A stretch of DNA of 41,282 bases from positions 1-41,282 of IMG/VR virus record IMGVR_UViG_3300009702_000046; one strand, written 5' to 3'. Shown piece by piece: positions 6,994 to 31,936 of this stretch. Source of the stretch: a virus. A program made the position numbers and the translations under genes. The notes beneath the pieces were generated by a model, which saw only the letters and a list, made by a program, of their open reading frames with translations, ran no database searches and was not told the DNA's origin. Position 1 is the first letter of the stretch. The number at the start of each line of letters is the position of its first letter.

Positions 6994-8097
6994 ATGCGAA
7001 TCCTAACGTTCCTGACCTGCATCGTTCTCTTCGGTTGCGCCTCCATTAAAAAAGACAACGATCCCAAGAAGCCCAATAGCCTCTCTGAGGTCGTTGACTT
7101 GATGCACGATGTCTATATCCAGGATGGCAGGTCGAGCTTAGATTCTCATGGCATGGTCTTGATGGACGGGAGTAAAGGGGACTCAGCGCTATTCTCCTGC
7201 CTTGCCTACTCGGCTGGACTGGCCAGTTTCGACGTCGAAATTCTATTCGACAATGGTAAGCCACTCCGTCACCCTGATATCTCTCCAGCTGACTCAGACA
7301 CTCCTATCTCAAGAGACATGGTCCAAGGCATTGCCTGGTGTCTATATAGTCTCGGTGAGAAAGACAGGGCTAAGGCGCTTAGCCTAACGAAGAAGATGAT
7401 CGAATACGGTACCAGTCATCTCTATCTGACCGGCTGGAACTTCTGTAGCGATGAGGATAAAGAGGTCTACAAGATCAAAGCAGACGACTTCCTTGGCAAG
7501 TGTGTCATGACTCCTTCTACTATGAAGGATATCTACCGCATTCTTATCTTAGAGGGAGGAGACTGTGACTCAAGATGCCAGATTGCTATGGCTATTGGTC
7601 CGAACATCCCAAGCAACTCACACGGCTTCCAGAGACATCTTAGCATCATCGCAACGATTAGAAACGGTTTGGTCGAAGGCGCTATCAATGACAACAGCCT
7701 CAAACTGCTTAGAGAGGCAAGCAAGGAAGAGCCTAACAACGCTCTATACAGCGCCGCTTATCATCTCTTCTCAGGAGGAGACCAATCAAAAACTTGGAGT
7801 CTTCTCGCGAATAAGAACTTGTTTCCGCATGATCATGCAGCTACCTCGGACAACTACTGCACCGGCTACCTCTACCAACGAGATGAGAAAAGAAAAGAGG
7901 ATCTCGATGTAGTCGATGGTTGTGTGAGCTATGTTTCTGCCGATACCAAGAAGCCAGTCAAGGAATGTGGGCTAGACCAGGAGAGTGTCAGTCGACTGGT
8001 GTACAATGGTGACTGGCTCCCTTGTAACGATGGTAGGAAGAAGTCCATGGTCGATTGGCTCTTTGCTGAACATGTGGCCAAAGGGAAACTCCAATGA
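6994..8097 (+). CDS. Large lipoprotein of unknown function (367 aa)
   Basis: The start is ATG 6994, chosen because GAAGGAG lies six bases upstream and the next 15 residues (RILTFLTCIVLFGC) are a lipoprotein signal with lipidation at Cys15. The mature protein is helical and cysteine-rich (LFSCLAY, GIAWCLYSLG, GWNFCSDED, GDCDSRCQIA, DNYCTGYLY, WLPCNDG), suggesting disulfides in the periplasm. The arrangement of short helical pairs (SLGEKDRAKALSL, EPNNALYSAAYHL) is TPR-like. It may modify the infected cell envelope, for example in superinfection exclusion, but this is inference. A perfect copy of the genome-wide operator palindrome lies inside the gene at 7227-7240. Confidence 0.6.
   Translation: MRILTFLTCIVLFGCASIKKDNDPKKPNSLSEVVDLMHDVYIQDGRSSLDSHGMVLMDGSKGDSALFSCLAYSAGLASFDVEILFDNGKPLRHPDISPADSDTPISRDMVQGIAWCLYSLGEKDRAKALSLTKKMIEYGTSHLYLTGWNFCSDEDKEVYKIKADDFLGKCVMTPSTMKDIYRILILEGGDCDSRCQIAMAIGPNIPSNSHGFQRHLSIIATIRNGLVEGAINDNSLKLLREASKEEPNNALYSAAYHLFSGGDQSKTWSLLANKNLFPHDHAATSDNYCTGYLYQRDEKRKEDLDVVDGCVSYVSADTKKPVKECGLDQESVSRLVYNGDWLPCNDGRKKSMVDWLFAEHVAKGKLQ
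7227..7240. promoter_or_regulatory. Operator palindrome, intragenic copy
   Basis: Perfect TTTCGACGTCGAAA inside the lipoprotein gene, where it encodes part of SFDVEI. It is one of nine perfect copies in the window and the only perfect copy lying well inside a gene, so it may be a remnant, a protein-binding site for looping, or chance tolerance by the codons. Confidence 0.55.
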
Positions 8098-8417
8098 TCT
8101 CTCTGACCAGCCTTGTCCCTGCCTTAGCCAACGGTCTCATCGTTGTCATCGGGGGGATACTTGTCTGGGCTGTCAAAAGTGCTGTTAAGAGGCTTGAGAC
8201 TCAAGCTGAGACCATCGAACAGATCAAGCTCGACCTGAATACTGCCACTCATCAGATATCCCATGCTCTCGATCTAAGAGACGATCAGAAAAGAGATCAT
8301 GACAACCTGATCGAAATGAAGGTCACGGTCAAGAAGCATGGCGAGGATCTTAACGTTCTGCATGGTAGAGTAAGGAAAACCATGTCAGAGATAGACCGAC
8401 TGAAAGATGTGAGATGA
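8094..8417 (+). CDS. Membrane-anchored coiled-coil protein (107 aa)
   Basis: Starts by ATGA overlap with the lipoprotein gene. Residues 4-27 (LTSLVPALANGLIVVIGGILVWAV) form a single transmembrane helix. Residues 30-107 are a long charged coiled coil (RLETQAETIEQIKLDL through VRKTMSEIDRL). The topology resembles phage lysis accessory or inner-membrane spanin/holin-class proteins, and it precedes the endolysin cluster. The assignment to lysis rests on position and topology only. Confidence 0.55.
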   Translation: MISLTSLVPALANGLIVVIGGILVWAVKSAVKRLETQAETIEQIKLDLNTATHQISHALDLRDDQKRDHDNLIEMKVTVKKHGEDLNVLHGRVRKTMSEIDRLKDVR

Positions 8418-8439
8418 GCATTTAACCAGGGAGGGTGAG

Positions 8440-8781
8440 ATGGGAGAGAAAGAGAACAAGTTAGACATTTCGGAAGCCATGGATGTGATTGGCTACGCAC
8501 AGACTGTGGTCCAGCATCTAGCTGATGCACGTGCAGACGACGGACAGATCAGTAAGTCAGAGATCTTCATGACCTTCATTCAGACGGCTCCTGCTGCCGT
8601 CCAGGCTATTGTCGGGGCTGACAAGATTGATGATGAGCTAAAGGACTTGACTGAGGATGAGAAGACGAAACTTTTGCTAGCTTCTTTCCAGGTGGTCAAG
8701 ACTCTCTCCGGTATCTGGGGAGGTGATCTTGCAAAGGCTCACAAAGAATCTCTTGCCTCTGAAGACTCGGCTAAAGCCTAG
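8440..8781 (+). CDS. Small acidic helical protein (113 aa)
   Basis: The ATG follows GGGAGG. The product is mainly alpha-helical, with DVIGYAQTVVQHLADARADDGQISKSEIFMTF and a second amphipathic half FQVVKTLSGIWGGDL; there is no signal peptide and no convincing membrane segment. It lies between the coiled-coil membrane protein and the endolysin and ends with TAG, evidence that TAG acts as a normal stop in this genome. Function unknown; structural or lysis-regulating roles are both possible. Confidence 0.55.
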   Translation: MGEKENKLDISEAMDVIGYAQTVVQHLADARADDGQISKSEIFMTFIQTAPAAVQAIVGADKIDDELKDLTEDEKTKLLLASFQVVKTLSGIWGGDLAKAHKESLASEDSAKA

Positions 8782-8887
8782 GTCCTTCCCTCCGATACAT
8801 AGCTTAGGGGCCATTGTTCCCCAGGCTAAGGTTTGTGGCTGAGTTCCTATATAAAAACCCAGCCTTCGTTCTTACATGGAGATAGTC

Positions 8888-9349
8888 ATGGCTGAGCCCT
8901 TCCGTCAGCTCTCAAAGGAAGTAGCGGTAGAGCATGGTCTGAATCCTGATCTTGTCTACGCCATGATCCAGGTTGAGTCAGGATGCAACCAATGGAGTTT
9001 ACGTTTTGAGCCACGTTGGCGGTGGTTCCTGTCTCCTAAGACTTGGTCAAAGATTTTGAACATCTCTGAAATGACTGAGCATGTCTGTCAACAGATGTCA
9101 TGGGGGTTGATGCAAGTGATGGGAGGGGTAGCTAGGGAGCATGGCTTTGACGATCTACTCTCCAAACTGATGATCCCCAAGGTCGGCATTGACTACGGTT
9201 GTCGTCATCTAAAGAAGATGCTGGATCGTTATGGGAATCTCCCAGATGCAGTCATGGCCTACAATGCTGGTCATCCTGGCACTGGTCTCGGTCATGCCTA
9301 TCTAACGAAGGTCATGGACGCCATGCAAAAACTTGAGAGGATGTCATGA
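8888..9349 (+). CDS. Lytic transglycosylase endolysin (SLT fold)
   Basis: Start ATG 8888 is preferred over the in-frame ATG 8876 because GGAG lies just upstream of it. The 153-residue protein has the Slt/goose-lysozyme-like signatures: catalytic Glu30 in IQVESGCNQWS, the SWGLMQVMGG motif at about residue 75, and AVMAYNAGHPG near residue 125. It should cleave peptidoglycan glycosidic bonds with anhydro-ring formation. No signal peptide is seen, so release depends on a holin, for which the next overlapping gene is the candidate. Position after the fibre genes fits a lysis cassette. Confidence 0.85.
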   Translation: MAEPFRQLSKEVAVEHGLNPDLVYAMIQVESGCNQWSLRFEPRWRWFLSPKTWSKILNISEMTEHVCQQMSWGLMQVMGGVAREHGFDDLLSKLMIPKVGIDYGCRHLKKMLDRYGNLPDAVMAYNAGHPGTGLGHAYLTKVMDAMQKLERMS

Positions 9350-9633
9350 TCAACCAGGCTAGTACGATCCCACCTGAGGTATGGGCCTCAGCAATTAACT
9401 ACCTAGCGAAGCTCCTAGGAGTCCCCAACTTCGTTGCCATGTATTTAGTCGCTATGACTGGTCTTAGAGCGGTTGCAGAGGGTGCTGGCTGGGTTGCTGA
9501 CAAGACCAAGAACAAGTTCGACAACAAGGTTGTTCGTGCTCTCTGTAATGCGGTCAATGCGATGGCATGGCTAGCAGGTCTATTCGGTTTTGGTAAGCCA
9601 AAGCATGTGAAGCATCCCGTGAAGCAGGGATAG
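9346..9633 (+). CDS. Holin-like small membrane protein (95 aa)
   Basis: Starts by ATGA overlap with the endolysin. Two hydrophobic segments are visible, about residues 27-48 (GVPNFVAMYLVAMTGLRAVAEGAGW) and 68-84 (LCNAVNAMAWLAGLFGFG), separated by a charged loop with KTKNKFDNK, and the C-terminus is basic (KPKHVKHPVKQ). This small two-helix design with a charged tail next to a transglycosylase fits a class II-type holin. It could instead be an unrelated membrane protein; no sequence signature is diagnostic. Confidence 0.55.
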   Translation: MINQASTIPPEVWASAINYLAKLLGVPNFVAMYLVAMTGLRAVAEGAGWVADKTKNKFDNKVVRALCNAVNAMAWLAGLFGFGKPKHVKHPVKQG

Positions 9634-9656
9634 TGTGAGTTCGTCCTATCTTGGAG

Positions 9657-9686
9657 CCGGGTTCAATGGTGAGCCCGGTTTCTGTT
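9657..9686 (+). terminator. Rho-independent terminator after lysis genes
   Basis: An 8-bp stem CCGGGTTC / GAGCCCGG (one G-U pair) with loop AATGGT, followed by TTTCTGTT. It ends the plus-strand structural/lysis transcript. Confidence 0.7.
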
Positions 9687-9712
9687 ATGATGTGGACTGG
9701 ATTCGGATTAAG

Positions 9713-9741
9713 GGGCTGCTTTTCAAGCGGCTCTTTTTTTT
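9713..9741 (+). terminator. Second rho-independent terminator with T8 tract
   Basis: A 9-bp stem GGGCTGCTT / AAGCGGCTC (two wobble pairs) with loop TTC is followed by eight T residues. It acts on the plus strand and physically overlaps the last codons of the convergent minus-strand gene. Together with the hairpin at 9657 it forms a tandem terminator block. Confidence 0.8.
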
Positions 9742-10124
9742 ATGTCGATGATGCCTTGAGCTATAGCCATAGAGGCGATCTCAGCATGATGTCGACAGAA
9801 CTTATCGTAGCCAGTCAGATCGCCAAACTGCTCGGCATACCAACTCTGGACACCGGTACTGGGGAGGCCATAGGCCTTAGAGACGACCAGCATGTTCAGC
9901 CAGGGGAGGTAGTTGTCATTACAGTATTCCCAGAGAGCCCCAAGGCATTTCCCCATGACGAAGCGGCTAGTCCCTTCTGGAAAGGCGTCACTGTAGCAGA
10001 TTTTATGAGGGGTGATCATAAGCTGCTTAAGAAGGGCATTCAGCGAGAATCTGAATGCCTCACTGTTCTTCGGACTGTTCTTCGGTAGGTAGGCTGCCAC
10101 GTCGTCAGGATTGATTAGAAACAT
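9723..10124 (-). CDS. Conserved phage-type protein of unknown function (133 aa)
   Basis: Start ATG at 10124 is chosen because GGAGAG lies a few bases upstream on the minus strand; a longer start at 10157 has no such site. The protein reads MFLINPDDVAAYLP, a basic/helical section, then FVMGKCLGALWEYCNDNYLPWLNMLVV...GLPSTGVQSWY. The pattern of a small helical domain followed by LPxLxxLVV and GLP is one I associate with a small uncharacterised domain in phage and restriction-related proteins, but I cannot name it. It is one of only four minus-strand genes. The stop lies inside the plus-strand terminator stem. Confidence 0.65.
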   Translation of the reverse strand: MFLINPDDVAAYLPKNSPKNSEAFRFSLNALLKQLMITPHKICYSDAFPEGTSRFVMGKCLGALWEYCNDNYLPWLNMLVVSKAYGLPSTGVQSWYAEQFGDLTGYDKFCRHHAEIASMAIAQGIIDIKKRAA

Positions 10125-10353
10125 ATGTCTCTCCGTTGTTGGGGTGGATTTTGACACCGAGTGGCATCTCCACGTTGATAACCCAATGGTCTGTACTCTT
10201 ACTCTCCCAAGGCCTACAGGTCAAGGGTGCCCATTTTATCCCCAGTTTGTCCACAGGGTTGGCAGTTTCGACAGTCGAAATTCTGTTTGACGGTTCACGG
10301 ATGATCCAATACAAGCTCTCCCCATCACCAAGACGACGCACTTCGGAGACCAC
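10105..10353 (-). CDS. Small protein, minus-strand partner (82 aa)
   Basis: It overlaps the downstream minus-strand gene by 20 bases and is read first in a two-gene unit. The sequence ESLYWIIREPSNRISTVETANPVDK ... KSTDHWVINVEMPLGVKIHPNNGETY looks like a folded beta-rich domain. The GTG start at 10353 is only two bases from the divergent GTG of the helicase; an internal TTG preceded by GGGGAG is an alternative. A near-copy of the operator palindrome lies inside it. Function unknown. Confidence 0.5.
   Translation of the reverse strand: MVSEVRRLGDGESLYWIIREPSNRISTVETANPVDKLGIKWAPLTCRPWESKSTDHWVINVEMPLGVKIHPNNGETYVSNQS
10266..10280. promoter_or_regulatory. Operator palindrome variant with one extra base
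   Basis: TTTCGACAGTCGAAA is the genome-wide palindrome with one additional A at its centre. It lies about 75 bp upstream of the UvsW-like helicase start, inside the divergent minus-strand gene, where a promoter for the helicase would be expected because the two genes are nearly head to head. Confidence 0.5.
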
Positions 10354-10355
10354 CT

Positions 10356-12728
10356 GTGGTCACTCTGGAACTGTACAATTCCCGTTGTCGGGCAAAATGC
10401 GACAAGATCCTATTGAGGGAGTTGTGGCAGGTACTCTCATTCGAGGTCGATGGAGCCGAGCATATAAGGCGGCACATTGGCGAGCATATCAAGTGGGACG
10501 GTCGTAAGCGCCTCCTAGACCGACGGAACGGCTTCTTCCCAGCTGGTCTGGTCCCTCAGGTCATCCGCTACCTTAAGGCTGAGAACATCCCCTATAAGAT
10601 CGAGGACTGTCGGGAGAAGCCTAAGACTGGCTCGTTTGCAATGACCAGGGAGGCCTCGGAGAATATCCAGTCGAGAGAGTACCAGGAGGAAGCTCGGGCC
10701 TGTCTAAAGAGAAATGCTCGGGGGATCATCGTTATGTCTGTGGGTGCTGGTAAGTGCCTCGCCAAAGGAACGAACCTCCTACGTCACGACGGATCAACCG
10801 TGGCGGTGGAGGACGTCATCGTCGGGGATCTTCTGATGGGCCCAGACTCCAAGCCTCGGAGAGTCCTTTCATTGGCGCGAGGTCGAGAGCGTATGGCTCG
10901 CATCATCCCCGTCAAGGGCGCTGCCTGGGAGTGCAACGTGAGCCACGTCCTCAGCCTCCGTTGCACGGCAACACACTCGCGCAAGTACAAGAAAGATGCA
11001 ATCGTCAACATCTCGGTCAGCGACTATCTGCGAGAGAGCGATAACTTTAAGCAAATGATGAAGCTCTGGCGGACTGGCGTTGAATTTCCGAGACGCGAGA
11101 CCCCTCTCGACCCTTATTTGCTGGGACTCTGGCTCGGTGATGGAGCATTTCGTAGCAGTAGGATCTTCAATCAGGACGAAGAGATTCTTGATTACCTAAA
11201 GACAGAGACCGACTGCACGACAAAGTGGGACCGGACAACGTTCGGGACCTATGTTCGTGGCATCTCTCATCACTTAGCCGAGGCCAGAGTCGACGGTGAG
11301 AAAAGGATTCCATTCAGTTACAAGATCAATGAACGGCAGCAACGACTCGCCCTGCTAGCTGGCCTACTCGACACTGACGGTTACCTGCATCATGGTTTCT
11401 TCGATATCGTCACGAAATATGCGGGTCTCCGTGACGACATCTTATTCCTGGCCAGATCCCTCGGACTGGCAGCCTATTCGCGCGAGATGGTCGGAACGAT
11501 CAAGAGCATTGGATTTCGAGGGCTCTATCATCGGATTGGGATCTCCGGTCACGTTGACGAGATCCCTTGTCGCATCGCCCGCAGGCAAGCGGACAGAAGG
11601 CGGCAGAAAAAGAATGTCCTCAATGTCGGCTTTAAGGTCGAGCTTTTGCCTGAGGCCGACTACTACGGCTTTGAGCTAGATGGCGATCGTATGTTTCTGT
11701 TGGACGACTTCACGGTCACTCACAACACGATCCTTGCTGCTCAAGCGATTGCTGATAAAGGTCTGCCTACCTTATTCGTCACGCCAGACACGGGACTGAG
11801 AGAGCAGACTGCCAAGGTATTCAGATGGATCTTTGGCGAGAGCATGGTCGGCATGGATGTCACCGGTAACCATCCAATCGTTGTCCAGAACATCCAAGCT
11901 CTAGCTAGGCGTGACCGGAAACACTTCGAACGTTTCAAGGTCCTGGTCACTGATGAGTTCCACCATTCAGCAAGCGAATCTTACCAAGCGTTGAACCATT
12001 TGCTTGTCTCGGCCTACTATCGTTACGGACTCACGGGCACGCCAGTCAGACCAGACGGTCAAGAAATGGTCATGTTCGGTGTCCTTTCGAAAGTTATCTA
12101 TAAGAAGACAGCCTCAGAACTTATTGAAGACGGTTGGCTTATCCGTCCGAACATCAACATCCATCGTTGGCAACTCAAAAAATATAGCAAGCTGAACTAC
12201 AGAGAAGCCTACGCTCGTCTCTGTAACGACATACCGTTTCAAAAATACATCGCTGGCCTAGCGAATGACTGTGCGAACAACAGAGGCAAGAGAACGCTTG
12301 TCCTTGTCAAGAATATCGAGCACGGCGAATTGCTCAGCTCGATGATCGAAGGAGCGGTTTTCCTTCACGGGAAACACAAACGTGATCACAGAGAGAATAT
12401 AAAGGAAGCGTTTAACAAGGGTGAGCTAAAGTGCCTGATCGCTACTTCAATTATGGGCGAAGGTCAAGACATTCCCAATATCAATGCGTTTGTGAATGCT
12501 CGGTTCCAAGCCTCTGAGATCCAAACGAAACAAGGCATTGGTAGAGCCCTGAGACTGGCTCAAGGCGCAGGCAACTACAAAGAATCCGTCGCTCTTGGCA
12601 AGGCCGATTGCGAGGTGTATGATTTTCTAATCAAAGGCCAGAGAAATCTTTTAAATCATTCGGTCAGCCGACTGCTGCAATACAAGAGCGAACCTGCGTT
12701 TCGTATCCATGTATGTCGCGCTAATTGA
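10356..12728 (+). CDS. UvsW-like superfamily 2 DNA helicase, intein-interrupted
   Basis: GTG start with CGGAG seven bases upstream. Residues ~1-90 match the UvsW N-terminal domain style (SFEVDGAEHIRRH, IKWDGRKRLLDRRNGFFPAGLV). The Walker A motif SVGAGK is split by a 324-residue intein after the lysine (residues 134-457) and resumes with TILAAQAIADKG. Downstream come DEFHH (motif II), YGLTGTPVRP (III), and QGIGRALRLA (VI), giving a spliced protein of about 466 residues. In T4, UvsW unwinds R-loops and D-loops and drives branch migration during recombination-dependent replication. UvsX, UvsY-like and gp32-like genes elsewhere in the window support the same role. Confidence 0.85.
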   Translation: MVTLELYNSRCRAKCDKILLRELWQVLSFEVDGAEHIRRHIGEHIKWDGRKRLLDRRNGFFPAGLVPQVIRYLKAENIPYKIEDCREKPKTGSFAMTREASENIQSREYQEEARACLKRNARGIIVMSVGAGKCLAKGTNLLRHDGSTVAVEDVIVGDLLMGPDSKPRRVLSLARGRERMARIIPVKGAAWECNVSHVLSLRCTATHSRKYKKDAIVNISVSDYLRESDNFKQMMKLWRTGVEFPRRETPLDPYLLGLWLGDGAFRSSRIFNQDEEILDYLKTETDCTTKWDRTTFGTYVRGISHHLAEARVDGEKRIPFSYKINERQQRLALLAGLLDTDGYLHHGFFDIVTKYAGLRDDILFLARSLGLAAYSREMVGTIKSIGFRGLYHRIGISGHVDEIPCRIARRQADRRRQKKNVLNVGFKVELLPEADYYGFELDGDRMFLLDDFTVTHNTILAAQAIADKGLPTLFVTPDTGLREQTAKVFRWIFGESMVGMDVTGNHPIVVQNIQALARRDRKHFERFKVLVTDEFHHSASESYQALNHLLVSAYYRYGLTGTPVRPDGQEMVMFGVLSKVIYKKTASELIEDGWLIRPNINIHRWQLKKYSKLNYREAYARLCNDIPFQKYIAGLANDCANNRGKRTLVLVKNIEHGELLSSMIEGAVFLHGKHKRDHRENIKEAFNKGELKCLIATSIMGEGQDIPNINAFVNARFQASEIQTKQGIGRALRLAQGAGNYKESVALGKADCEVYDFLIKGQRNLLNHSVSRLLQYKSEPAFRIHVCRAN
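10755..11726 (+). mobile_element. Intein with LAGLIDADG-type homing endonuclease (in UvsW-like helicase)
   Basis: The element starts at Cys (CLAKGTNLL after GAGK) and ends with VTHN before Thr, the canonical N- and C-terminal splice residues. Splicing block B is NVSHVLSLR and the C-terminal block is YYGFELDGDRMFLLDDFTVTHN. The two DOD endonuclease motifs are LLGLWLGDG and LLAGLLDTDG, both with their Asp intact. At 324 residues it is a full-size, probably active intein inserted in the P-loop between GK and T. It is clearly homologous to the RecA intein at 34997-36013. Confidence 0.9.
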
Positions 12729-12755
12729 CCTTGAATGTTGACCTTGAGGACGACC

Positions 12756-13346
12756 ATGGATCGAGTCTCTCGCTTAATTAAGCGACACGAGCCCCTTCTC
12801 CGCTACATCGTCAAAAAATACCTAGAGCGACTAGTCAATGACGATCGATCGGCATATCGTTTCGATGATCTTCTTCAAGAAGCCAGGATAGCAGCTTGGC
12901 GTGCGGTCATGAGCCATGACGAGAACAAGCGCTCAAAGGTCTCTACGTATATGGGGACATGCGCTACGAACAAGATGCGCGACCTCGTTCGGAAAGTTAA
13001 TCGCCTTAAAAATCCTTCCTATACTCCCATCGAAGACATTCATCTCGAAAAGGTCGATGAGTCGATCGAACAACAATACGACCTGAAAAACATGAGTGTC
13101 ACTCTCGAAAAATTCCTAGAAACAGACCACTACAAATATATCGAGAAGATCATCAACGAAGACTTCACGCTAGACGAGATCCTCAAATATGCGATGGGTC
13201 TTCACGGTTCTGATCCTGACGACGGAAGACGTCATAGAAGGAAATGTCGTGACGAGGTAGTGAGTTGTTTGTCCCAAGTACAGCAAGCATTAGAATTGAG
13301 CGCGAAGAGCCTGACATCGAGGTCGACAAAGCAAAGAGCTTTGTAG
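12756..13346 (+). CDS. Sigma-70-like transcription factor
   Basis: Start ATG 12756 is preferred because GAGGA lies five bases upstream. The 196-residue protein has a sigma region 2-like core: FDDLLQEARIAAWRAVMSHDENKRSKVSTYMGTCATNKMRDLVRK, where the DLLQEA helix binds core polymerase in the family and the STYMGTCATNKMRD segment corresponds to the -10-recognition helix. A convincing region 4 is less clear; FTLDEILKYAMG may be part of one. It could read the CTAAAG/TATTAT promoters of this phage. Its end overlaps the next frame by 82 bases. TAG stop. Confidence 0.7.
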   Translation: MDRVSRLIKRHEPLLRYIVKKYLERLVNDDRSAYRFDDLLQEARIAAWRAVMSHDENKRSKVSTYMGTCATNKMRDLVRKVNRLKNPSYTPIEDIHLEKVDESIEQQYDLKNMSVTLEKFLETDHYKYIEKIINEDFTLDEILKYAMGLHGSDPDDGRRHRRKCRDEVVSCLSQVQQALELSAKSLTSRSTKQRAL

Positions 13347-16712: not shown

Positions 16713-16728
16713 GTTTCGACGTCGAAAC
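16713..16728. promoter_or_regulatory. Operator palindrome downstream of P1
   Basis: GTTTCGACGTCGAAAC, a perfect 16-bp palindrome placed where the transcription start and early leader of P1 should be. A protein bound here would block initiation or early elongation. Confidence 0.75.
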
Positions 16729-19701: not shown

Positions 19702-20244
19702 ATGAAGAATTTACTTATGGCATGTGCATTGCTCGCCGGTTGTGGTGCCGATCTTAGTTCGCTCAAGGCTGATCAGTGTGATCCGAACAAAAGCGATTGC
19801 ACTAAGCAAGACAGTAGTACTCAACAAGATGTTCCGACCGAGGAAGTTCTACAAAAGAAGAATCCGGAAGTTGCCTCTCTCGAACCGAATGTGAGCGTCG
19901 ATGTCGATGTGAGCGTTGATGTCGATGTCAGTGAGAGCCAGCAAGATCAAGGTGAGAATGGCGAAGGTCCTAGTGCGATTGGCGTGATCTTCACTCCAAA
20001 CCGAATGACCTATGATGAGGCGGTTGCGAATGTGCCAGGTGGCTACAAACTTCCCACTCGGTCTGAGCTGACCCAGATACTCGATGACTACTCTTACCCG
20101 ATTGACGCTACGGACTTTGTCTGGACTGCATCGAAGTCAGGGACTACGACCTCATGGGTTATCTCTCTTAGGGATGGTCGCTCTTTCCCGTATGATCGGA
20201 TAACAACTTTTCGAGTCCTCTACCTGAAGGAAAGTGCACAATGA
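19702..20244 (+). CDS. Lipoprotein with DUF1566 (Lcl C-terminal-like) domain
   Basis: An ideal lipobox LLAGC gives lipidation at Cys14. Residues ~20-90 are a disordered acidic linker with the repeat SVDVDVSVDVDVS. The C-terminal ~85 residues follow the DUF1566 pattern: MTYDEAVANVPGGYKLPTRSELTQIL, DFVWTASKS, SWVISLRDGRS, FRVLYLKES. Such domains occur in secreted and surface proteins of bacteria. AAGGAG precedes the ATG. Located in a replication region, it looks like a cargo gene altering the host envelope; the function is inferred. Confidence 0.75.
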   Translation: MKNLLMACALLAGCGADLSSLKADQCDPNKSDCTKQDSSTQQDVPTEEVLQKKNPEVASLEPNVSVDVDVSVDVDVSESQQDQGENGEGPSAIGVIFTPNRMTYDEAVANVPGGYKLPTRSELTQILDDYSYPIDATDFVWTASKSGTTTSWVISLRDGRSFPYDRITTFRVLYLKESAQ

Positions 20245-20585
20245 AGAAAAAGAAAAAGAAGGGAGTCCAGGTCCAGGAATCCCGCAATGTCAGTTTAAGG
20301 ATGAGCCTTGAAGGCAACCATTATCTCGAAGCCAGGGTAAAGGAGCTAAAAGCCTTGGCCGGACAGGGTCAAAGGCGCTCTGAGATCAACAAGACCTGGC
20401 TGATACATCGACTCATGGAACTAGGAATCGACTTCTTCGATGTGGCCTATCTTGGGGTCAGGACTCCATTTGAAAAGAAACTACATCATATGATCGTCAG
20501 CTGCGGAGGGGAGAAGAAGAAGGCATATCAGGAAGTTATGGATAAATGGCTGGAATATCAAGAGTCGGTCATTTCAGAGGATTAA
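20241..20585 (+). CDS. Possible ribbon-helix-helix DNA-binding protein (114 aa)
   Basis: ATGA overlap with the lipoprotein. The N-terminus is strongly basic (KKKKKKGVQVQ). Residues ~15-58 have a beta strand NVSLRMSL followed by two helices (GNHYLEARVKELKALAG, RSEINKTWLIHRLMELGI), the order expected for an Arc/CopG-like domain. The C-terminal helices may mediate multimerisation. It lies immediately upstream of promoter P3 and its palindrome, so an autoregulator of the palindrome regulon is an attractive but untested idea. Confidence 0.5.
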   Translation: MKKKKKKGVQVQESRNVSLRMSLEGNHYLEARVKELKALAGQGQRRSEINKTWLIHRLMELGIDFFDVAYLGVRTPFEKKLHHMIVSCGGEKKKAYQEVMDKWLEYQESVISED

Positions 20586-20681: not shown

Positions 20682-20701
20682 GAGTTTCGACGTCGAAACT
20701 C
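20682..20701. promoter_or_regulatory. Operator palindrome downstream of P3
   Basis: GAGTTTCGACGTCGAAACTC is a perfect 20-bp palindrome starting 21 bases after the TATTAT of P3, between the promoter and the leader hairpin. P4 and P5 lack it, so only the first gene of the module has this extra control. Confidence 0.8.
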
Positions 20702-25050: not shown

Positions 25051-25371
25051 ATGAACGACCAAACAACAGCTGCTCTGAAACGACTAACTAAGGGCGAGCC
25101 CATGACCGAGGCTGACCGGCAAGTGGTCCTGACCTATATGGACGACCTGGAAAAAATCGCCCAGGACCAGATTGCCAAGGCTGAGATCATCGAGTCGACT
25201 GCAACCTCTAAGGCAGTCATGAATCTTCTAAAGACAGTCCGCTATCTGCTCTGGTTCATCCGGGCCAGAACTGAAGACTTCTGGGAACCAGGCATTCAGA
25301 AACTTCTAGCCGAGCTGCAAAGCAAAATGCCAGACGGTTACTTCGACGGTCTCTCAGACAGAGGAGAGTGA
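25051..25371 (+). CDS. Helical protein of unknown function (106 aa)
   Basis: ATG preceded by GGGAGAGAG. Mostly alpha-helical: TAALKRLTKGEPMTEADRQVV, TYMDDLEKIAQDQIAKAEIIE, MNLLKTVRYLLWFIRARTEDFW. No membrane segment long enough, no motif recognised. It is the first of three small genes between the MoxR module and the convergent terminator. Confidence 0.55.
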   Translation: MNDQTTAALKRLTKGEPMTEADRQVVLTYMDDLEKIAQDQIAKAEIIESTATSKAVMNLLKTVRYLLWFIRARTEDFWEPGIQKLLAELQSKMPDGYFDGLSDRGE

Positions 25372-25410
25372 TCGTAAAATAGATAGAACCCTTAACGAAA
25401 GGATTAGGTA

Positions 25411-25596
25411 ATGTCCGAGACAGCCAAGAAAACGAAGAGGAAAACGAAGAAAAAAACGACGAGGAAAACGCGGCGTAAAAGCTACCTAACCGATGAACGA
25501 GCGTCGGTAACGCTTAAGCTGGTTTCCGAGGTCCTGGGGCTTGGCCATAAGTCAGCCAAGGACCAACTCTCTCTCATCAGAGAGATCGTCAAGTGA
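25411..25596 (+). CDS. Very basic small protein (61 aa)
   Basis: ATG after GAAAGGATTAGG. Residues 5-24 are almost all Lys/Arg/Thr (KKTKRKTKKKTTRKTRRK), followed by a short helical domain (ASVTLKLVSEVLGLGHKSAKDQLSLI). Likely to bind nucleic acid by charge. Similar K/T-rich tails appear on four other proteins here. Translationally coupled (GTGA) to the next gene. Confidence 0.55.
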   Translation: MSETAKKTKRKTKKKTTRKTRRKSYLTDERASVTLKLVSEVLGLGHKSAKDQLSLIREIVK

Positions 25597-25913
25597 CCTT
25601 GCGAGGACTGACAAGAGATAAATTGCTGGCCTACTGCCGAGAACATGAGATCAGTGTCCCATCAAGTGCCAGTAAAGAACAGATAGAAGCCGCGATAGCG
25701 AGAGCCTATCTGCACCTGCAAGAGGCGAAGCCTGGCAAGTTTGGTTGCTTTGGATACTGGGATGGAGAGGACCAAAACTGTCACCGCTTTTGCAAATACC
25801 GTGAAGAGTGCCTTAAGTCGTCGGTCGGAATGTCGATGAAACAGTACAAGAGACATGAGAAAACTGTAGACCGACTGAGATTCGCGGAACCTATCCGCAA
25901 GAAAAGGCGCTGA
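25593..25913 (+). CDS. SAP-like/cysteine-cluster protein (106 aa)
   Basis: A GTG start overlaps the upstream stop. Residues 1-40 (RGLTRDKLLAYCREHEISVPSSASKEQIEAAI) resemble a SAP/HeH-type helix-extended-helix DNA-binding motif. Residues ~48-75 carry four cysteines and a histidine (GCFGYWDGEDQNCHRFCKYREECLK) that could bind zinc. The basic C-terminus ends in PIRKKRR. Function unknown; DNA binding is inferred. Confidence 0.55.
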   Translation: MTLRGLTRDKLLAYCREHEISVPSSASKEQIEAAIARAYLHLQEAKPGKFGCFGYWDGEDQNCHRFCKYREECLKSSVGMSMKQYKRHEKTVDRLRFAEPIRKKRR

Positions 25914-25941
25914 CTGAGAGAGGAATCCCGCTTGTCAGCAC

Positions 25942-26466
25942 CTAGGCCCTGGGAGGACTGCGACCCTCCTGGGGCCGCCTTTTAAAGGTTGGCGGCTCCC
26001 TGAGAAGACGCTTACTGACCCACCTAACTCTTTCAGAGAACTCCCCACCATAAATTGAGAGGCATACGTCTTGAGTGTTGCCCTTTGATGGGACTCCATC
26101 TTTCAGGAAGTCCACACGACCAGTAATGATCCTTACCTGGGTCGGTGGGACGTGGGCGAAGTATCGAGTACTGATCACCACTGGCATCAAGACGACGATC
26201 TTAGCGCCTCTCCTGAACTCATACTGAGCCTTCTGTATCCAAGGCTTCAATGGGCTGAAGGGAGGATTGAGCCAGAGCCAGCCGTCTAAAAGATGCCAGT
26301 CTTGTTTAAGAGAGTCCTCTTCTGGTGAGAAGAATTTTTCGCACTTCTCAAGGCCAGGACTCGCAGCCAGATCCCAGGTGAACCTAAATTCCTTGTTCAG
26401 TCGATCAAAGAGCCAGTGAGGGGTTTCATAGTCATTACCGTGGACCGTTTTAAACTGCTTTTTCAA
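25942..26466 (-). CDS. Phage DNA N-6-adenine methyltransferase
   Basis: A 174-residue protein of the phage Dam-like family (PF05869-type). Visible motifs: NDYETPHWLFDRLNKEF at residues 11-27, FTWDLAASPGLEKCEKFFSP, catalytic NPPF at 67-70 in WLWLNPPFSPLKPWI, and the GAKIVVLMPVVISTRYF and RIITGRVDFL strands. It transfers methyl from SAM to adenine N6 in phage DNA, usually for protection or timing control. The last ~15 residues (RRPQEGRSPPRA) are encoded by a terminator stem. Second gene of a minus-strand pair; its start overlaps the first by 17 bases. Confidence 0.88.
   Translation of the reverse strand: MKKQFKTVHGNDYETPHWLFDRLNKEFRFTWDLAASPGLEKCEKFFSPEEDSLKQDWHLLDGWLWLNPPFSPLKPWIQKAQYEFRRGAKIVVLMPVVISTRYFAHVPPTQVRIITGRVDFLKDGVPSKGNTQDVCLSIYGGEFSERVRWVSKRLLREPPTFKRRPQEGRSPPRA
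25945..25985. terminator. Terminator between convergent transcripts
   Basis: A 12-bp stem from GGCCCTGGGAGG to CCTCCTGGGGCC (two wobble pairs) with an eight-base loop, followed on the plus strand by GCCTTTT. It also overlaps the last codons of the minus-strand methyltransferase. Confidence 0.75.
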
Positions 26467-26674
26467 TGTCGATCACCCTCTCGAACTGCGCTCTAAAATC
26501 CGACTGTTCACGGACGAACTGAGGATGCTGTTCTCCTGACCGATGGTAAAGGACCGATGAGACCCATTTGCCGTCCCTCTGATCTTTCATGAGGACCATG
26601 TCAGTGACCAGATAGCGCTGGCCGTGGCCCCTCATCACATACTCCCCGAAGATCGGCTCATCTTTTCTCGACAT
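26450..26674 (-). CDS. DUF1653-like small protein (74 aa)
   Basis: First gene of the minus-strand pair, read away from the operator hub. GEYVMRGHGQRYLVTDMVLMKDQ, WVSSVLYHRSG and FVREQSDFRAQFERV follow the DUF1653 layout (short beta-barrel with a conserved Tyr/Val pattern and a final F-x-R helix). Such proteins are small and uncharacterised. GAGGG precedes the ATG on this strand. Confidence 0.55.
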   Translation of the reverse strand: MSRKDEPIFGEYVMRGHGQRYLVTDMVLMKDQRDGKWVSSVLYHRSGEQHPQFVREQSDFRAQFERVIDIEKAV

Positions 26675-26772
26675 TCAACCCTCCGAGATGGAAGTTATCG
26701 GCTCTAAGATTCTGGCTCAGAATGTTATCCCGAGTAAAGGATACAAATTCTTTATTAATTTCGAAGGCCTAT

Positions 26773-26792
26773 CAATTTCGACGTCGAAATTG
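26773..26792. promoter_or_regulatory. Hub operator 1
   Basis: CAATTTCGACGTCGAAATTG, perfect 20-bp palindrome. It is the first of a run of five sites in the intergenic hub, about 100 bp upstream of the minus-strand DUF1653-like start. Confidence 0.85.
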
Positions 26793-26807
26793 GTGAGTTA
26801 TGTGGTA

Positions 26808-26823
26808 GTTTCGACGTCGAAAT
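26808..26823. promoter_or_regulatory. Hub operator 2
   Basis: Perfect core TTTCGACGTCGAAA at 26809-26822, flanked by G and T. Its centre lies 33 bp from that of operator 1, about three helical turns, so both would be on the same DNA face. Confidence 0.8.
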
Positions 26824-26845
26824 TGAGTCAGGGAAGGTCATAGTA

Positions 26846-26861
26846 GTTTCGACGTCGAAAT
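26846..26861. promoter_or_regulatory. Hub operator 3
   Basis: Perfect core TTTCGACGTCGAAA at 26847-26860. Its centre is 38 bp from that of operator 2. Confidence 0.8.
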
Positions 26862-26887
26862 CAGTGAGTCGAGGAGAGTTTTAACAG

Positions 26888-26901
26888 TTTTAACGTCGAA
26901 A
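26888..26901. promoter_or_regulatory. Hub operator 4 (degenerate half-site)
   Basis: TTTTAACGTCGAAA: the right half is perfect, the left half has CG changed to TA. Its centre is 41 bp from that of operator 3, so spacing is kept although the sequence has decayed or been tuned. Confidence 0.6.
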
Positions 26902-26936
26902 TCGGGGTGGCAGGTAGCCAGATAGGGCATTTTTTG

Positions 26937-26958
26937 CCAATTTCGACGTCGAAATTGG
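26937..26958. promoter_or_regulatory. Hub operator 5 (longest palindrome)
   Basis: The core at 26941-26954 is extended on both sides by CCAA and TTGG, giving a perfect 22-bp palindrome, the longest in the window. Next to it starts the AT-rich tract. Confidence 0.85.
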
Positions 26959-26959
26959 G

Positions 26960-27557
26960 TATCGGGCCCCTTTCAGCGCTCGCGCAGCCTTATATATGTC
27001 TATTTATCTACCGATAATGGTAAGTAGAACAATTATTTTCATTTTTTTTAAAAAAACATTTCTTAATGATATTTGTATCTTATGTAAAAAAAGGCTCTAA
27101 AATGACCCAATTCCGTTTTATTTTTTCATTTTTGAAATCTAAAAAACGTAAAACTTCGTAGAAGTTTACTTCGCCGTTCGACGCGGCGAGTGGTCGGCCG
27201 AAGGCCGATGGACCGAAGGTCCACTTACGCCGTAATAAACGTCTATAGGCGTACCCGCCTTTCCTGGCATATTCTTGCCTTTCCTGGCATATCCTTGCCT
27301 TTCCTGGCATCCCTTGCCTTCTCTAGGCATGCTTGCCTTCTATAAGCTATGGCGCAAGCGCCATAGGATGACCATCGCTGCGCTCGGTCATAACCGTGGT
27401 AAACGTTTCTCGTATGTTGAATGTTGGTTGGTCTACGAACATTACCAGACTAGTTCTTCCCAACTGGTTCTGTTCACTGGGGCAGCCCCACAGGGCTGTA
27501 TGCTTATGGTGGAATGGCTAAATATAGAGACATATAGAGGGCTATAGAGGGCTATAA
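26960..27557. other. Non-coding hub: candidate origin or structured RNA region
   Basis: No credible gene lies here. From about 27000 to 27145 the DNA is very AT-rich. Hairpins follow: AAACTTC/GAAGTTT at 27151-27167, twin GAA-loop stems TCGGCC/GGCCGA at 27194-27208 and TGGACC/GGTCCA at 27209-27223, a 9-bp stem at 27347-27366, ATGACC/GGTCAT at 27368-27391, and CAGCCC/GGGCTG at 27483-27498. Iteron-like repeats lie between them. AT-rich tract plus direct repeats plus clustered palindromes is the usual architecture of a replication origin, but a structured non-coding RNA or packaging site is equally possible. Confidence 0.55.
27257..27330. repeat. 20-bp iteron-like tandem repeats
   Basis: GCCTTTCCTGGCAT occurs at 27257, 27277 and 27297 with a 20-bp period, followed by a variant TTGCCTTCTCTAGGCAT at 27314-27330 and a weaker fifth copy. 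Each unit holds a small inverted repeat (TGCC...GGCA). Two helical turns per unit suit a protein bound on one face. Confidence 0.8.
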
Positions 27558-27905
27558 ATGAGAAAGCAGAGACTAGAGATCGAGATGCCAAATGGAACGA
27601 TAGAGGCGTTCACAAATGACGAGACCGATAACTGGGAGGTCAAAGACGACCACCTTCTCTTTTACTGCGGGGTCATGGACGAGGACGACGAGGTCCACAC
27701 CTTCCCAGTGGTCTCCAAGCGCAAGTGGTGCATCCCGAACAAGGACTATCGTCTCTTCGGTCATTTGATCGACCGAAGCTATGCCGAGGAGCACTACGGT
27801 TTCGCGGTCCCTCCCCATTGGAAGAACGTAGTATTGGCTACGAGGATGGAAGTTATGCGCGACACTTACTGGGAGGAAACTTCAGGTCGGAGATTGCGAG
27901 GTTAA
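27558..27905 (+). CDS. Unknown protein (115 aa), first gene right of the hub
   Basis: The ATG follows a weak AGAGGG site. The protein has a beta-rich N-terminal part (QRLEIEMPNGTIEAFTND, NWEVKDDHLLFYCGVMDED) and a C-terminal part with DYRLFGHLIDRSYAEEHYGFAVP and a basic end. No family recognised. Directly downstream is another operator palindrome. Confidence 0.55.
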   Translation: MRKQRLEIEMPNGTIEAFTNDETDNWEVKDDHLLFYCGVMDEDDEVHTFPVVSKRKWCIPNKDYRLFGHLIDRSYAEEHYGFAVPPHWKNVVLATRMEVMRDTYWEETSGRRLRG

Positions 27906-27906
27906 A

Positions 27907-27920
27907 TTTCGACGTCGAAA
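27907..27920. promoter_or_regulatory. Operator palindrome before the kinase remnant
   Basis: Perfect TTTCGACGTCGAAA lying in the 28-bp gap between the 115-residue gene and the kinase-like frame, three bases before a GGAG ribosome site. Too close to the start codon for a separate promoter downstream, so it may block elongation or translation. Confidence 0.75.
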
Positions 27921-27933
27921 CTGTGGAGATAAA

Positions 27934-28110
27934 ATGTGGTTGACCTTGATCGGACCCCCGACCTGCAAACAGGTCGCAGCTGACCTGCTAGTCAAAGAAA
28001 GAGGCTACAAGATAATCGGTGAGCAGCTTTCCCATGACCCAAATTTCTATTCCCAGCTAGAAACCCTGAACCAACGTTTAAGGACAACATCGCATCCCAA
28101 GAAGCGATGA
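27934..28110 (+). pseudogene. Deoxynucleoside-kinase-like N-terminal fragment (58 aa)
   Basis: ATG follows GGAGATAAA. The fragment reads LTLIGPPTCKQVAADLL then GYKIIGEQLSHDPNFYSQLETLNQR, matching the start of deoxynucleoside kinases, except that the P-loop is GPPTCKQ instead of GxxxxGKS/T. It stops at TGA 28108-28110, while the -1 frame continues the same family (FKDNIASQEAMTK...). Adding one T to the TTT at 28077-28079 (CGTTTAAGG) would fuse the two parts as NQRFKDNIAS. So it is a frameshifted or programmed two-part gene with a probably dead ATP site. Confidence 0.65.
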
Positions 28111-28538
28111 CCAAAGCGGAGGTCATAAACCTCTTCTCTTTCTGGGACACGCATGAGGTCTTCGATAAAGCCCTTCATGAGATGGAAGAACTTAGCGACT
28201 ACGAGTTCGATCTAATGGAGAGCACCTATCTCAACTACTGTCCGTTCGTTGAACCGCCGCACGCTTTCATCTACTGCAAGGCTCCGCCTATCTGGATTCA
28301 AAACAGAATGTCGTTTAAGAACGAGACTCCTAACGAGAACTTGATCAAGAGAGTTTCTAAGCACTACGAAGATTTTGTTGAGCGAGTCAGGATTCCGATC
28401 ATAGATGTCGATGCGACTTTGCCATTCGATCAGATATGGGAGTTGCTTAGTTACGATGTCGATCAGATAAAGACAGCGGCAATGGCAACGCAGACTATGT
28501 GGACCAGAAGCGTTTTTAGAAATGGGAGATTGCCATGA
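28107..28538 (+). pseudogene. Deoxynucleoside-kinase-like C-terminal part (143 aa)
   Basis: Overlaps the N-terminal fragment by ATGA. It contains FWDTHEVFDKALHEMEELSDYEFDL, STYLNYCPFVEPPHAFIYCKAPP and a C-terminal HYEDFVERVRIPIIDVDA, which are the core helices and the IYL..PP strand of the dNK family. The usual DRS motif before FWDTHEVF is replaced by NLF, and the lid RIxxRxRxxE by RMSFKNETPNE, so catalysis looks lost. It may still be translated by coupling as a regulatory or structural relic. Otherwise a normal nucleotide-salvage gene broken by one indel. Confidence 0.65.
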
Positions 28539-28753
28539 ACAAACCAATACCTCGGATTTTTTTAGAAGCAATTAAGAAAGAGCGTGACCGTTGCCTTTGC
28601 CTTATGGATGACCTTAACCGCATAGACCCAGTAAACGATAAGGCTGAGTTTCTTGAGGTCTGCGAATTAATCAGAGAGTCATTAGAAAAAATTGAGACGA
28701 TAGTCCTAGAGTCGGGTAGGACAGATTTCAAAAGAGAACTAACACTTGTTTAG
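28535..28753 (+). CDS. Small helical protein (72 aa)
   Basis: ATGA overlap with the kinase-like gene, and its last eight bases overlap the polymerase start. Nearly all helical (FLEAIKKERDRCLCLMDDLNRI, AEFLEVCELIRESLEKIETIV). The position directly before the polymerase gene suggests coupling of its translation to polymerase synthesis. No family recognised. TAG stop. Confidence 0.55.
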   Translation: MNKPIPRIFLEAIKKERDRCLCLMDDLNRIDPVNDKAEFLEVCELIRESLEKIETIVLESGRTDFKRELTLV

Positions 28754-31700
28754 TCATTTGCATTCACACTCTGAGTTCTCTGTAGCTGATGGCTTGCATG
28801 CACCGAAGAAGTGGGCTCAAGCGATAGATGAAGCCGGGTTCAAGGCTCACGCACTAACTGACCACGGCACGATGAGTGGTTCGCTTCCTTTTTTCTACGC
28901 GATGAAAGATCGTGGCCTGACTCCGATCATCGGTTGCGAATTTTACTTCACTGATGATCCAACAAATAAAGAAGAGCGAAGATCGAATCACTTAGTTCTT
29001 TTGGCAAAGGACTACGACGGCTACCACAGTCTTTTGAAACTCCAGCAGCTAAGTAACAGCGAGGGTTTCTATTACAAGCCTCGCATCGGGATTGACTGGC
29101 TAAAGAAACACAACCACGGTCTGGTCTGTCTGACTGCATGTCTTGGCGGAGTTCTCTCGGCCGAGTGCTGGCGAGAATTCGAAGGCGAGAAAACTCTTGG
29201 CTTAGAAAAACGTTACGATCAGTTCAGAAATATTTTTGGCAAGGACTTCTATGTCGAGTTCCAAGGCCATGCTTCGGAAGACCAAGCAAAAGTTCAGATC
29301 CAATTCTACGAACGTCTTCGCAACCGCAAAGGTTTCCAACAGGTCATCACGAATGACTGTCACTATATTCATCCCGATCATGCCATGGTGCAGACTCTCT
29401 TAAAGAGAAATGCCTATGGCAAGTCAGAGTCAGCTGAGAGCTACACAGCATTTGACTCGCTCTTTTTGAAGACTCCAAAAGAAGTCTACGAGACTTTCAC
29501 TGAGAACCATGAGTATCTACCGAAGCGGTTTGTCGTTGATGGGATGAAAGCGACGGAAGAGATCGTTGAGAAGTGCAGAGGTCTTGAGTTCCCGGATCGT
29601 CGCTACCTACCTTCCTTCCCAACCAAGAAGATGACCTCCTCAGAACTATTTAAGAGACTGACCACGAAGAGGCTAAAAGAGTTTCTAGCGGCTGGGAAAA
29701 TTTATGCTGATCGCAGGACTTATATCGAGCGCTTTGCAAAAGAATACAAGGTTATCACAGAGCACAACCTCCAGGACTATTTCCTGATCGTCTGGGACAT
29801 TTGCCGACACGCAAGATCAGAAGGTATTTACGTTGGACTGGGTCGAGGTAGTTCGGCTGGCTCGCTGATCTCATATCTTTTACAGATCGTTGCCATTGAC
29901 CCGATCAGATACAAATTAATCTTCGAGAGATTTTTAAACGAGAACCGTTGCGTCAACGGTGAGCTTCCCGATATAGACCTCGACTTCGAATCGGAGAGGC
30001 GCGAAGAGATCAAGCAATATGTGGTGTCGAAGTATGGACAAGACTGCGTTTGCGAAATCGAAACCTACGGTCGACTCATGCTCAAGAGCGCGATCATCGA
30101 CTTCGGAAAGTTGTTCGAGTTCTCGAATAGTGAGCTACTTGAGATCACGACGAACCTTGACTTGGCAAAGGGAGACGAGAAGGATCTTGAAGCAGCAATG
30201 GAAGCGAGTCCAAAACTTGCGTCTATGATGAACGGCAACCCTGAGTACCACCTTGCTGTCCAGGAGATCATCGGCCAGGTCAAGACTCAGTCAGTCCATC
30301 CAGCAGGTGTCATTATCTGTTCCGAGCCGATTGCGGATGTGACTCCTGTCAAAAGTCAGAAGAAAGATGGCGGACGAGTCACCGTCACTCAGGCTGAGGA
30401 TAAATATGTCATTCGCCAGGGCATGGTGAAGATGGATTTCCTCGGTCTGAAAGAATACGACATAAACAAATTCATCATCGAGAACTCAGGCTGCAAGTTC
30501 ACAGCTGAGAATTATGTCGAGAAGATCCAGGAGATCGCCTGGAACAAGCCCTGCAAAAAAGTCTGGAAGATGTTCCAGCAGGGCGAGACCGATGCAGTGT
30601 TCCAGTTTGCCAGCGGCGGCATGAAGCATCTTCTAAAAACCATGAAGGCGAGTTGCATAAACGATCTAATTGCAGCTGTGGCTCTCTACCGACCTGGCTG
30701 TCTTGAGAATGGCTGGCATGAAGCCTATTGCCGAAGGAAGCGCGGCGAGGAAGAGGTCGACTACATTCATCCGGACCTGGAAGAGGTCTTGGGTGGTACC
30801 TACGGGATCATCGTTTTTCAAGAGCAGTTCATGGAGGTGTTTCATAGGATCGGGAAAATCAAACTCTCTGATGCAGACACGATTCGATCGGCTCTGGGAA
30901 AGAAAGATGCGGAGAAGCTCCAGGGCTTTGAAAAGGAATTCCTCAAGGGTGCAGAGCAGACTCTTAAAGATCGAGGTAAGGCTGTTGATCTTTGGAACCA
31001 GATAAAAGCGGCATCGGGCTATTCTTTCAACCGCTCCCATTCTGCCGTCTACGCTCTTCTGGCATTCATCAGCCAGTACCTAAAGGTCAACTACCCGGCT
31101 TATTTTTGGGCAGCTGTTTTCGAATGGAACACGAAGAAGAACGATAGAGGCAAGCTCCTGATGAACTTGCAGGCTGCCAAGAAGATGGGGATCGTCCCAC
31201 TGATGCCTGATCTGATGAAGTCCAAGGCGACATTCACAGTCAAGAAGGCAATCCCCTGGGAAAGGCATGAGACAGTCCCAGCTGAGATAGAGAGGCCAAG
31301 ATGGTCTCTAGCTGGTATCTCAGGGCTTGGTCCTAAAGCAGCGGCTGAGATAGCCAGTAAGCAGCCTTTCACGAGCTTTAAGGACTTCTACTTCCGGATT
31401 CACAAAGGCAAGGTCAAATGGGACGCCATTTTGAAGATGGCCTATGCAGGAGCATTCGACTGCCTAGAGGACCGCAGGGCGATCATTACTTGGCTTTATA
31501 AGCAGAAAGAGGGCAAGCGCTGCCCCAAACTGACCGAGAGGGATCTCCTTCTAAAATTCCATGAGGTCATGGGGTTCTTCGAGCGACCGTTGTCTGAGAT
31601 ATATGAGGGCATCCGAGACTACGATGTCTCGACCGAGAATGAGCTGTCTGAGTTCAGCAACGGTGATCGAGGTATCTGTGTGGCAGGCATGGTCGCTGAG

Positions 31701-31916
31701 TACAGGACCATCCATTCCAAGAAGGGGAAAATGGGCAAGGCCAGGATCGTCGATGCGACTGGCTCGATCGAACTCAACTTCTTTTCAGATGAGTGGGCTT
31801 CCTACTGTGCTCGCGTCAAGAAGGGCAATGTCCTGGTCGTCACGGGAGAAAAATCTACCTGGGGAGGCAAGGAGAACCTTCTGAACGCCTATTCCGTCGA
31901 GATCATCTCCTCCTAA
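28746..31916 (+). CDS. dnaE: DNA polymerase III alpha subunit (C-family, DnaE-like)
   Basis: The best start is TTG 28746, overlapping the preceding gene; it places the PHP motif HLHSHSEFS at the very N-terminus as in DnaE. The 1,056 residues carry LTDHGTMSG (PHP), the palm block GLGRGSSAGSLISYLL, catalytic PDIDLDFE at about 408-415, the third acidic block VKMDFLGLKEYDIN near 560, FQEQFMEVFHRIG and FNRSHSAVYALLAF, a helix-hairpin-helix region (GISGLGPKAAAEIA) and a C-terminal OB fold (VAGMVAEYRTIHSKKGKMG). It is slightly shorter than E. coli DnaE (1,160). It is the phage's replicative polymerase; no exonuclease epsilon or clamp is seen in the window. Confidence 0.93.
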   Translation: MFSHLHSHSEFSVADGLHAPKKWAQAIDEAGFKAHALTDHGTMSGSLPFFYAMKDRGLTPIIGCEFYFTDDPTNKEERRSNHLVLLAKDYDGYHSLLKLQQLSNSEGFYYKPRIGIDWLKKHNHGLVCLTACLGGVLSAECWREFEGEKTLGLEKRYDQFRNIFGKDFYVEFQGHASEDQAKVQIQFYERLRNRKGFQQVITNDCHYIHPDHAMVQTLLKRNAYGKSESAESYTAFDSLFLKTPKEVYETFTENHEYLPKRFVVDGMKATEEIVEKCRGLEFPDRRYLPSFPTKKMTSSELFKRLTTKRLKEFLAAGKIYADRRTYIERFAKEYKVITEHNLQDYFLIVWDICRHARSEGIYVGLGRGSSAGSLISYLLQIVAIDPIRYKLIFERFLNENRCVNGELPDIDLDFESERREEIKQYVVSKYGQDCVCEIETYGRLMLKSAIIDFGKLFEFSNSELLEITTNLDLAKGDEKDLEAAMEASPKLASMMNGNPEYHLAVQEIIGQVKTQSVHPAGVIICSEPIADVTPVKSQKKDGGRVTVTQAEDKYVIRQGMVKMDFLGLKEYDINKFIIENSGCKFTAENYVEKIQEIAWNKPCKKVWKMFQQGETDAVFQFASGGMKHLLKTMKASCINDLIAAVALYRPGCLENGWHEAYCRRKRGEEEVDYIHPDLEEVLGGTYGIIVFQEQFMEVFHRIGKIKLSDADTIRSALGKKDAEKLQGFEKEFLKGAEQTLKDRGKAVDLWNQIKAASGYSFNRSHSAVYALLAFISQYLKVNYPAYFWAAVFEWNTKKNDRGKLLMNLQAAKKMGIVPLMPDLMKSKATFTVKKAIPWERHETVPAEIERPRWSLAGISGLGPKAAAEIASKQPFTSFKDFYFRIHKGKVKWDAILKMAYAGAFDCLEDRRAIITWLYKQKEGKRCPKLTERDLLLKFHEVMGFFERPLSEIYEGIRDYDVSTENELSEFSNGDRGICVAGMVAEYRTIHSKKGKMGKARIVDATGSIELNFFSDEWASYCARVKKGNVLVVTGEKSTWGGKENLLNAYSVEIISS

Positions 31917-31918
31917 GC

Positions 31919-31936
31919 AGTTTCGACGTCGAAACT
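31919..31936. promoter_or_regulatory. Operator palindrome after polymerase gene
   Basis: AGTTTCGACGTCGAAACT, perfect 18-bp palindrome starting three bases after the polymerase stop codon and about 17 bases upstream of candidate promoter P6. Here it lies upstream of the promoter rather than downstream. Confidence 0.8.

Follow-up and report, generated by a model that had tools for sequence, protein, structure and literature searches.

Introduction

Cluster A mycobacteriophages, which are temperate, carry many short sites per genome (20-30), the stoperators, most of which lie outside promoters; these sites are asymmetric, are oriented with transcription and are bound by a monomeric repressor (PMC6550527, PMC9283540). 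Related phages have their own consensus, suited to their own repressor, and the sites are syntenic (PMC6550527, PMC9283540). The temperate Bacillus phage SPbeta has a 15-bp motif in promoter regions, SPBRE, which is bound by MrpR, a protein with a tyrosine-recombinase fold; the element was first seen in silico and the protein was tied to it later (PMC10516654). On plasmid RK2, the operators of KorB are palindromic, and KorB acts over long range from distal operators (PMC11790492). In the literature that we searched, dispersed genome-wide sites belong to temperate phages and plasmids, for immunity or silencing.

In this study, we analysed a palindrome repeated in a linear virus record of 41,282 bp; this whole stretch of DNA, referred to below as the window, is a fragment, not the full genome, of an undescribed myophage. 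Like stoperators, the sites are dispersed over the genome, are spelled distinctly in different relatives and occur at syntenic places. Unlike stoperators, they are palindromic, number 6 to about 17 per genome and show no bias with gene direction (as seen in the relative G067), and no integrase or repressor was detected. Like SPBRE, the palindrome is an element of a large phage that recurs between genes at a number of places, but a match to the Phage_integrase domain was not found in the present phage family. With the KorB and ParB/parS sites it shares the palindromic form, whereas the core sequence differs, and neither an HTH-bearing ParB-type protein nor a ParA match was found here. We file it as a putative new variant among dispersed phage binding sites, distinct from the stoperator system. 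Palindromic sites in phages that look virulent, kept in position while their spelling shifts throughout the genome, would allow the study of a binder and all of its sites changing together.

A repeated palindrome in the window

The window encodes UvsW, a sigma factor, DnaB, primase, ligase, an HDAC-like protein, CobS, CobT and Dam, and further DnaE, SSB, UvsX, SbcD and SbcC. We counted nine perfect copies of the 14-mer TTTCGACGTCGAAA in its 41 kb, against 1.5e-4 expected, and none of 100 dinucleotide shuffles attained 12 matches at <=3 mismatches. An earlier note on this DNA had reported these nine copies, and every position was reproduced, as was the expectation. It had also described most copies as extending to 16-22 bp; the perfect palindromes measure 14, 16, 20, 20, 14, 14, 22, 14 and 18 bp in positional order, five of the nine being longer than 14 bp. 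The natural 22-mer form of the site is CCAATTTCGACGTCGAAATTGG, and the 20-mer is a ready bait for the partner protein. Two near copies had been proposed as well: the one at 26888 is real, with two mismatches, but at 10266 there is no ungapped near copy, because one base is inserted. The sites outside the cluster, and the cluster with its neighbouring tract, are as follows.

7227..7240, unstranded: perfect site within ORF 6919-8097, where it reads ..SFDVEI..
10266..10280, unstranded: variant site TTTCGAC-A-GTCGAAA, both half-sites whole, with a 1-bp insertion
16714..16727, unstranded: perfect site, 16-bp palindrome, intergenic
20685..20698, unstranded: perfect site, 20-bp palindrome, between o20241 and cobS
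26776..26954, unstranded: site cluster in an 883-bp gap with divergent genes on either side
26990..27165, unstranded: AT-rich tract (78% AT by composition) adjoining the cluster
27907..27920, unstranded: perfect site immediately 3' of a stop codon, 13 nt ahead of the next ATG
31921..31934, unstranded: perfect site 4 nt 3' of the dnaE stop; in the relative L102 a site lies within the final codons of dnaE

The cluster comprises perfect sites at 26776, 26809, 26847 and 26941 and the two-mismatch site at 26888, with start-to-start spacings of 33, 38, 41 and 53. The adjoining AT-rich tract may serve in melting or control. Downstream of the cluster, the large gap also holds three 20-nt tandem repeats (GCCTTTCCTGGCATATTCTT) at 27257-27316. 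The variant form at 10266 matches the syntenic sites of two relatives, G045 and L176.

Coding and non-coding positions were judged against our own CDS list, under which 9.4% of the window is non-coding. Eight of the nine perfect copies lie outside this list, in agreement with the earlier description of eight as intergenic, and when the cluster is taken as one, 5/6 sites are non-coding (P = 4e-5). A bias towards gene borders was found in the window and in the relative G025, and many sites touch stop or start codons.

Architecture of the site

Consensus and flank statistics were computed from 41 sites that carry the two most frequent spellings. The results gave the consensus ARTTTCKACGTMGAAAYT, with the half-site ARTTTCKAC. 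The combinations of bases at -1/+1 were counted 16, 10, 9 and 6 times, compared with 15.9, 10.1, 9.1 and 5.9 under independence. The two positions therefore vary independently, which indicates no selection for pairing across the dyad, unlike what an RNA stem requires; this independence of the halves favours a symmetric protein that binds DNA over an RNA hairpin. Judged from these sequence features, the palindrome is very likely a dyad bound by a protein. Among the columns up to 60 bp outside the site, none exceeded 0.35 bits, and no promoter partner was found at a fixed distance. In G067, where the core is asymmetric, the orientation of the sites is independent of gene direction.

The sequences TTTCGACGTCGAAA, TTTCTACGTAGAAA and CTTCTACGTCGAAG had no occurrence in the open literature that could be searched, and the description of the motif as undescribed holds to that extent.

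Relatives and their spellings

We scanned viral contigs with the 14-mer, and multi-copy contigs, including G002, were among the matches listed; two closely placed copies were not found in a scan of viral contigs. Many other contigs with a single site, including L009, L010, L012 and L027, carry one 14-mer with a common flank (GGCAAGCATTTCGACGTCGAAAGTACCCTG or similar). G002 (46.8 kb, with head and tail genes) is 94.9% identical to the start of the window across a 293-bp overlap and, to judge from this overlap, represents the adjacent module of either the same phage or a near one. It contains eight perfect copies of the window's 14-mer, about half of them within genes.

Relatives were also sought by dnaE or cobS; scans with a single sequence gave 0 matches, and a two-sequence alignment succeeded. 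Two further relatives, L102 and L049, have the spelling of the window. G025 (115 kb with an end repeat, collinear with the window and G002) carries 13 copies of TTTCTACGTAGAAA and none of the window spelling, G026 (108 kb) carries six copies of the same sequence, and G028 and G027 carry one each. One more site, in L174, came from a sheath-based scan. G067 (110 kb) has eight sites with the core TTC(TACGTC)GAA and flanks mostly as in CTTCTACGTCGAAG; its capsid is 82% identical to that of G026, and the spelling nonetheless differs between these close relatives. Single copies of the spelling TTTTCGACAGTCGAAAA were found in G045 and L176. There are four spellings in total, one per relative, and the site-rich genomes carry their copies often at gene borders.

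G038, G053 and G064 and the partial genomes G048, G055 and G058 gave zero or stray single matches. The complete genome G038, a close relative, contains no site under the patterns tried, and no comparable palindrome (half-sites of 5-7 bp, gaps of <=8) was found in G038, G053 or G064, although a more diverged form could escape this search. G055 (L213), in which the main site is absent, carries another palindrome, ATGTAWTACAT, at 5829, 7750, 12881, 18588 and 19232, followed by NACGG in 4/5 cases. In the sheath tree, several forks of which are weakly supported, site-bearing genomes occur in both main branches, and the trait was therefore probably lost or altered more than once.

Positions kept while the spelling changes

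Three lineages with three spellings have a site at the same codons in the interior of dnaE, read as NFDVET in L102, SFYVET in G025 and NFYVED in G067. The homologous codons of the window read TFTVKK.

31230..31245, + strand: place in dnaE of the in-gene site of L102, G025 and G067; no site in the window, TTCACAGTCAAG

The dnaE-interior site of the window was either lost or never present. A second kept position follows the stop codon of the tail-tube gene, where six lineages have a site: G025, G026, G067 and L174, together with G045 and L176, which have the +1 form. Many relatives (sheath loci L156-L200) also have a conserved TTAGATTGA-like word after the tail-tube gene, ahead of the next gene. 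The sites at 8209 in G002 and 1466 in L049 lie in a common gap, before the gene that precedes portal, and those at 93527 in G026 and 790 in G028 both follow the same small gene.

The shift of spelling at kept positions and the use of one spelling in each relative speak for a partner of changed specificity that exerts selection on the DNA, and indicate a putative, undescribed protein-binding site system whose specificity would shift during phage evolution. The expectation that the motif recurs between genes in relatives was borne out in part: sites stand at homologous places under other spellings, but about half of those in G002 are intragenic.

Lifestyle and candidate binding proteins

No match to integrase, resolvase or (above the cut-off) HTH_3 was obtained in those records of the phage family that were searched; the complete genomes G025, G026 and G067 were among them. 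ParA (PF13614) gave 0 matches in nine records that include the same three genomes, and the GTDB genomes, searched by sheath, yielded no relative. On these results, the phages look virulent.

Two proteins of the window were considered as candidates in addition to its sigma-like factor.

20241..20585, + strand: o20241, candidate DNA-binding protein, ribbon-helix-helix-like by eye
32480..33373, + strand: o32480, candidate DNA-binding protein with a helical HTH-like core

The earlier note had named the sigma-like factor at 12756 and the 20241 protein as possible binders, and neither was retained. The former (12735-13346) gives a clean match to sigma-70 region 2, and promoter columns at a fixed distance are absent near the sites. 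The place of o20241 between the HDAC-like gene and cobS is conserved and its helices are compatible with a ribbon-helix-helix, yet zero fold, Pfam or PDB matches were obtained, and its relatives occur also in site-less genomes. The protein o32480 is conserved across the phage family, including the site-less G038; its AlphaFold core is partly confident, with no significant PDB fold match and weak coiled-coil-like sequence matches. An HTH_17 protein occurs in G025 and G067 only, and a ParB_N protein occurs also in the site-less G038 and G048; in relatives the ParB_N gene lies in the part that would follow position 41282 of the window. We found no phage gene common to all site-bearing genomes yet absent from the site-less ones, and the binding protein may be host-encoded. 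The proposal of a dimeric-protein site is thus upheld for the dyad, its non-random occurrence, its mostly intergenic position in the window and its conservation at homologous places, but not for either proposed binder.

Possible roles of the sites

We favour, with a probability of about 0.45, an operator or roadblock role for the dispersed sites, stoperator-like but palindromic, in apparently virulent phages. A symmetric sequence-specific DNA-binding protein would contact two ARTTTCKAC half-sites at many places per phage genome. The bound protein would be a genome-wide operator or roadblock factor at gene borders, which might shut or pace the transcription of units, as mycobacteriophage stoperators do, and its main control region would be the cluster of five sites at 26776-26954, which is flanked by divergent genes. 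Several results count against this model: no phage gene tracks the sites, G038 is site-less, and about half of the G002 sites are intragenic. Since no lysogeny gene was found, there is no need for an immunity repressor. The sites of G025 are spaced more evenly than chance (CV 0.34, P = 6e-5), which also counts against the model because it does not require evenness; even spacing was not seen in G026, G067 or G002.

The word regulon, used in the earlier note, may claim too much in view of the G002 sites within genes, which leave room for a genome-organising role. ParB/parS, Noc and MatP sites organise DNA in cells, and a dimeric protein could likewise bridge, condense, pair or position the phage DNA, nucleating mainly at the cluster of five sites. 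The even spacing in G025, the several intragenic sites of G002 and G067, the ParB_N-domain genes of G026 and G028, which lie close to a site, and the arm RTTTC..GAAAY, which we take to resemble parS and Noc sites, would fit such a role. It nevertheless seems unlikely, with no even spacing seen in the other three genomes, no ParA-type ATPase in the nine records, and ParB_N proteins that have no HTH in Pfam and are present in site-less genomes. Equally a minority view is that a still unrecognised dimer encoded by the phage uses the dispersed palindromes to organise or pace the entire genome of virulent myophages, with a specificity that switches at all sites between close relatives; if true, lytic phages would have a genome-wide site system of a new class. 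It is doubtful, if somewhat less so, that the binder is a host regulator or nucleoid factor which the phages recruit or titrate, the spelling tracking changes of host. This reading would account for the lack of a phage gene that tracks the sites and for the different spelling of the close relatives G026 and G067, and the same core is carried repeatedly by two unrelated contigs, G003 and G001; however, one spelling per genome would fit a phage-encoded partner too, and G001 and G003 were found by a search with the same 14-mer, so that coincidence is possible and the evidence weak.

The five spaced copies, the 78% AT tract and the tandem repeats, in the largest gap and 1-2 kb upstream of dnaE, also bring replication iterons to mind, and clustered direct repeats do stand beside an AT-rich tract at 26776-27165 of the window. 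The cluster would then be an origin and the single sites stray copies, which is very improbable: G025 and G026 carry single sites only and do not keep the cluster, single sites far from dnaE are conserved in position, and an initiator gene was not found. An RNA hairpin, which would terminate or process a transcript or act as a translational switch between the genes on it, is hardly credible. A stem with an ACGU loop can form, and the change from G5/C10 to T5/A10 between relatives is compensated, but A..C mismatches at -1/+1 are as frequent as chance predicts, a T-run after the sites is absent, the 14-bp core of the perfect sites shows no drift, and some sites are intragenic or lie in a divergent gap. 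The operator or roadblock role remains our preferred reading.

Further features of the contigs

G003 (L126-L127, 33 kb, isolate 2832556195), which has an integrase, carries eight sites, four of them perfect and four with one mismatch; two pairs are spaced by 33 bp, and the same R..Y flanks are present in 7/8 sites; credible protein homology with the phage family was not found. G001 (L121-L122, 28 kb), an unrelated phage contig, has 11 core copies at <=1 mismatch. On one strand, GA or GAT trails most of the G001 copies, with a consensus near CTTTCGACGTCGAAAGATC.

The genes for the UvsW helicase and the UvsX recombinase contain intein-like insertions that match Hom_end_hint and LAGLIDADG (10356-12728 and 34700-36670 in the window, 2919-4784 in L123). 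The terminase gene of G002 likewise reads as interrupted compared with that of G025.
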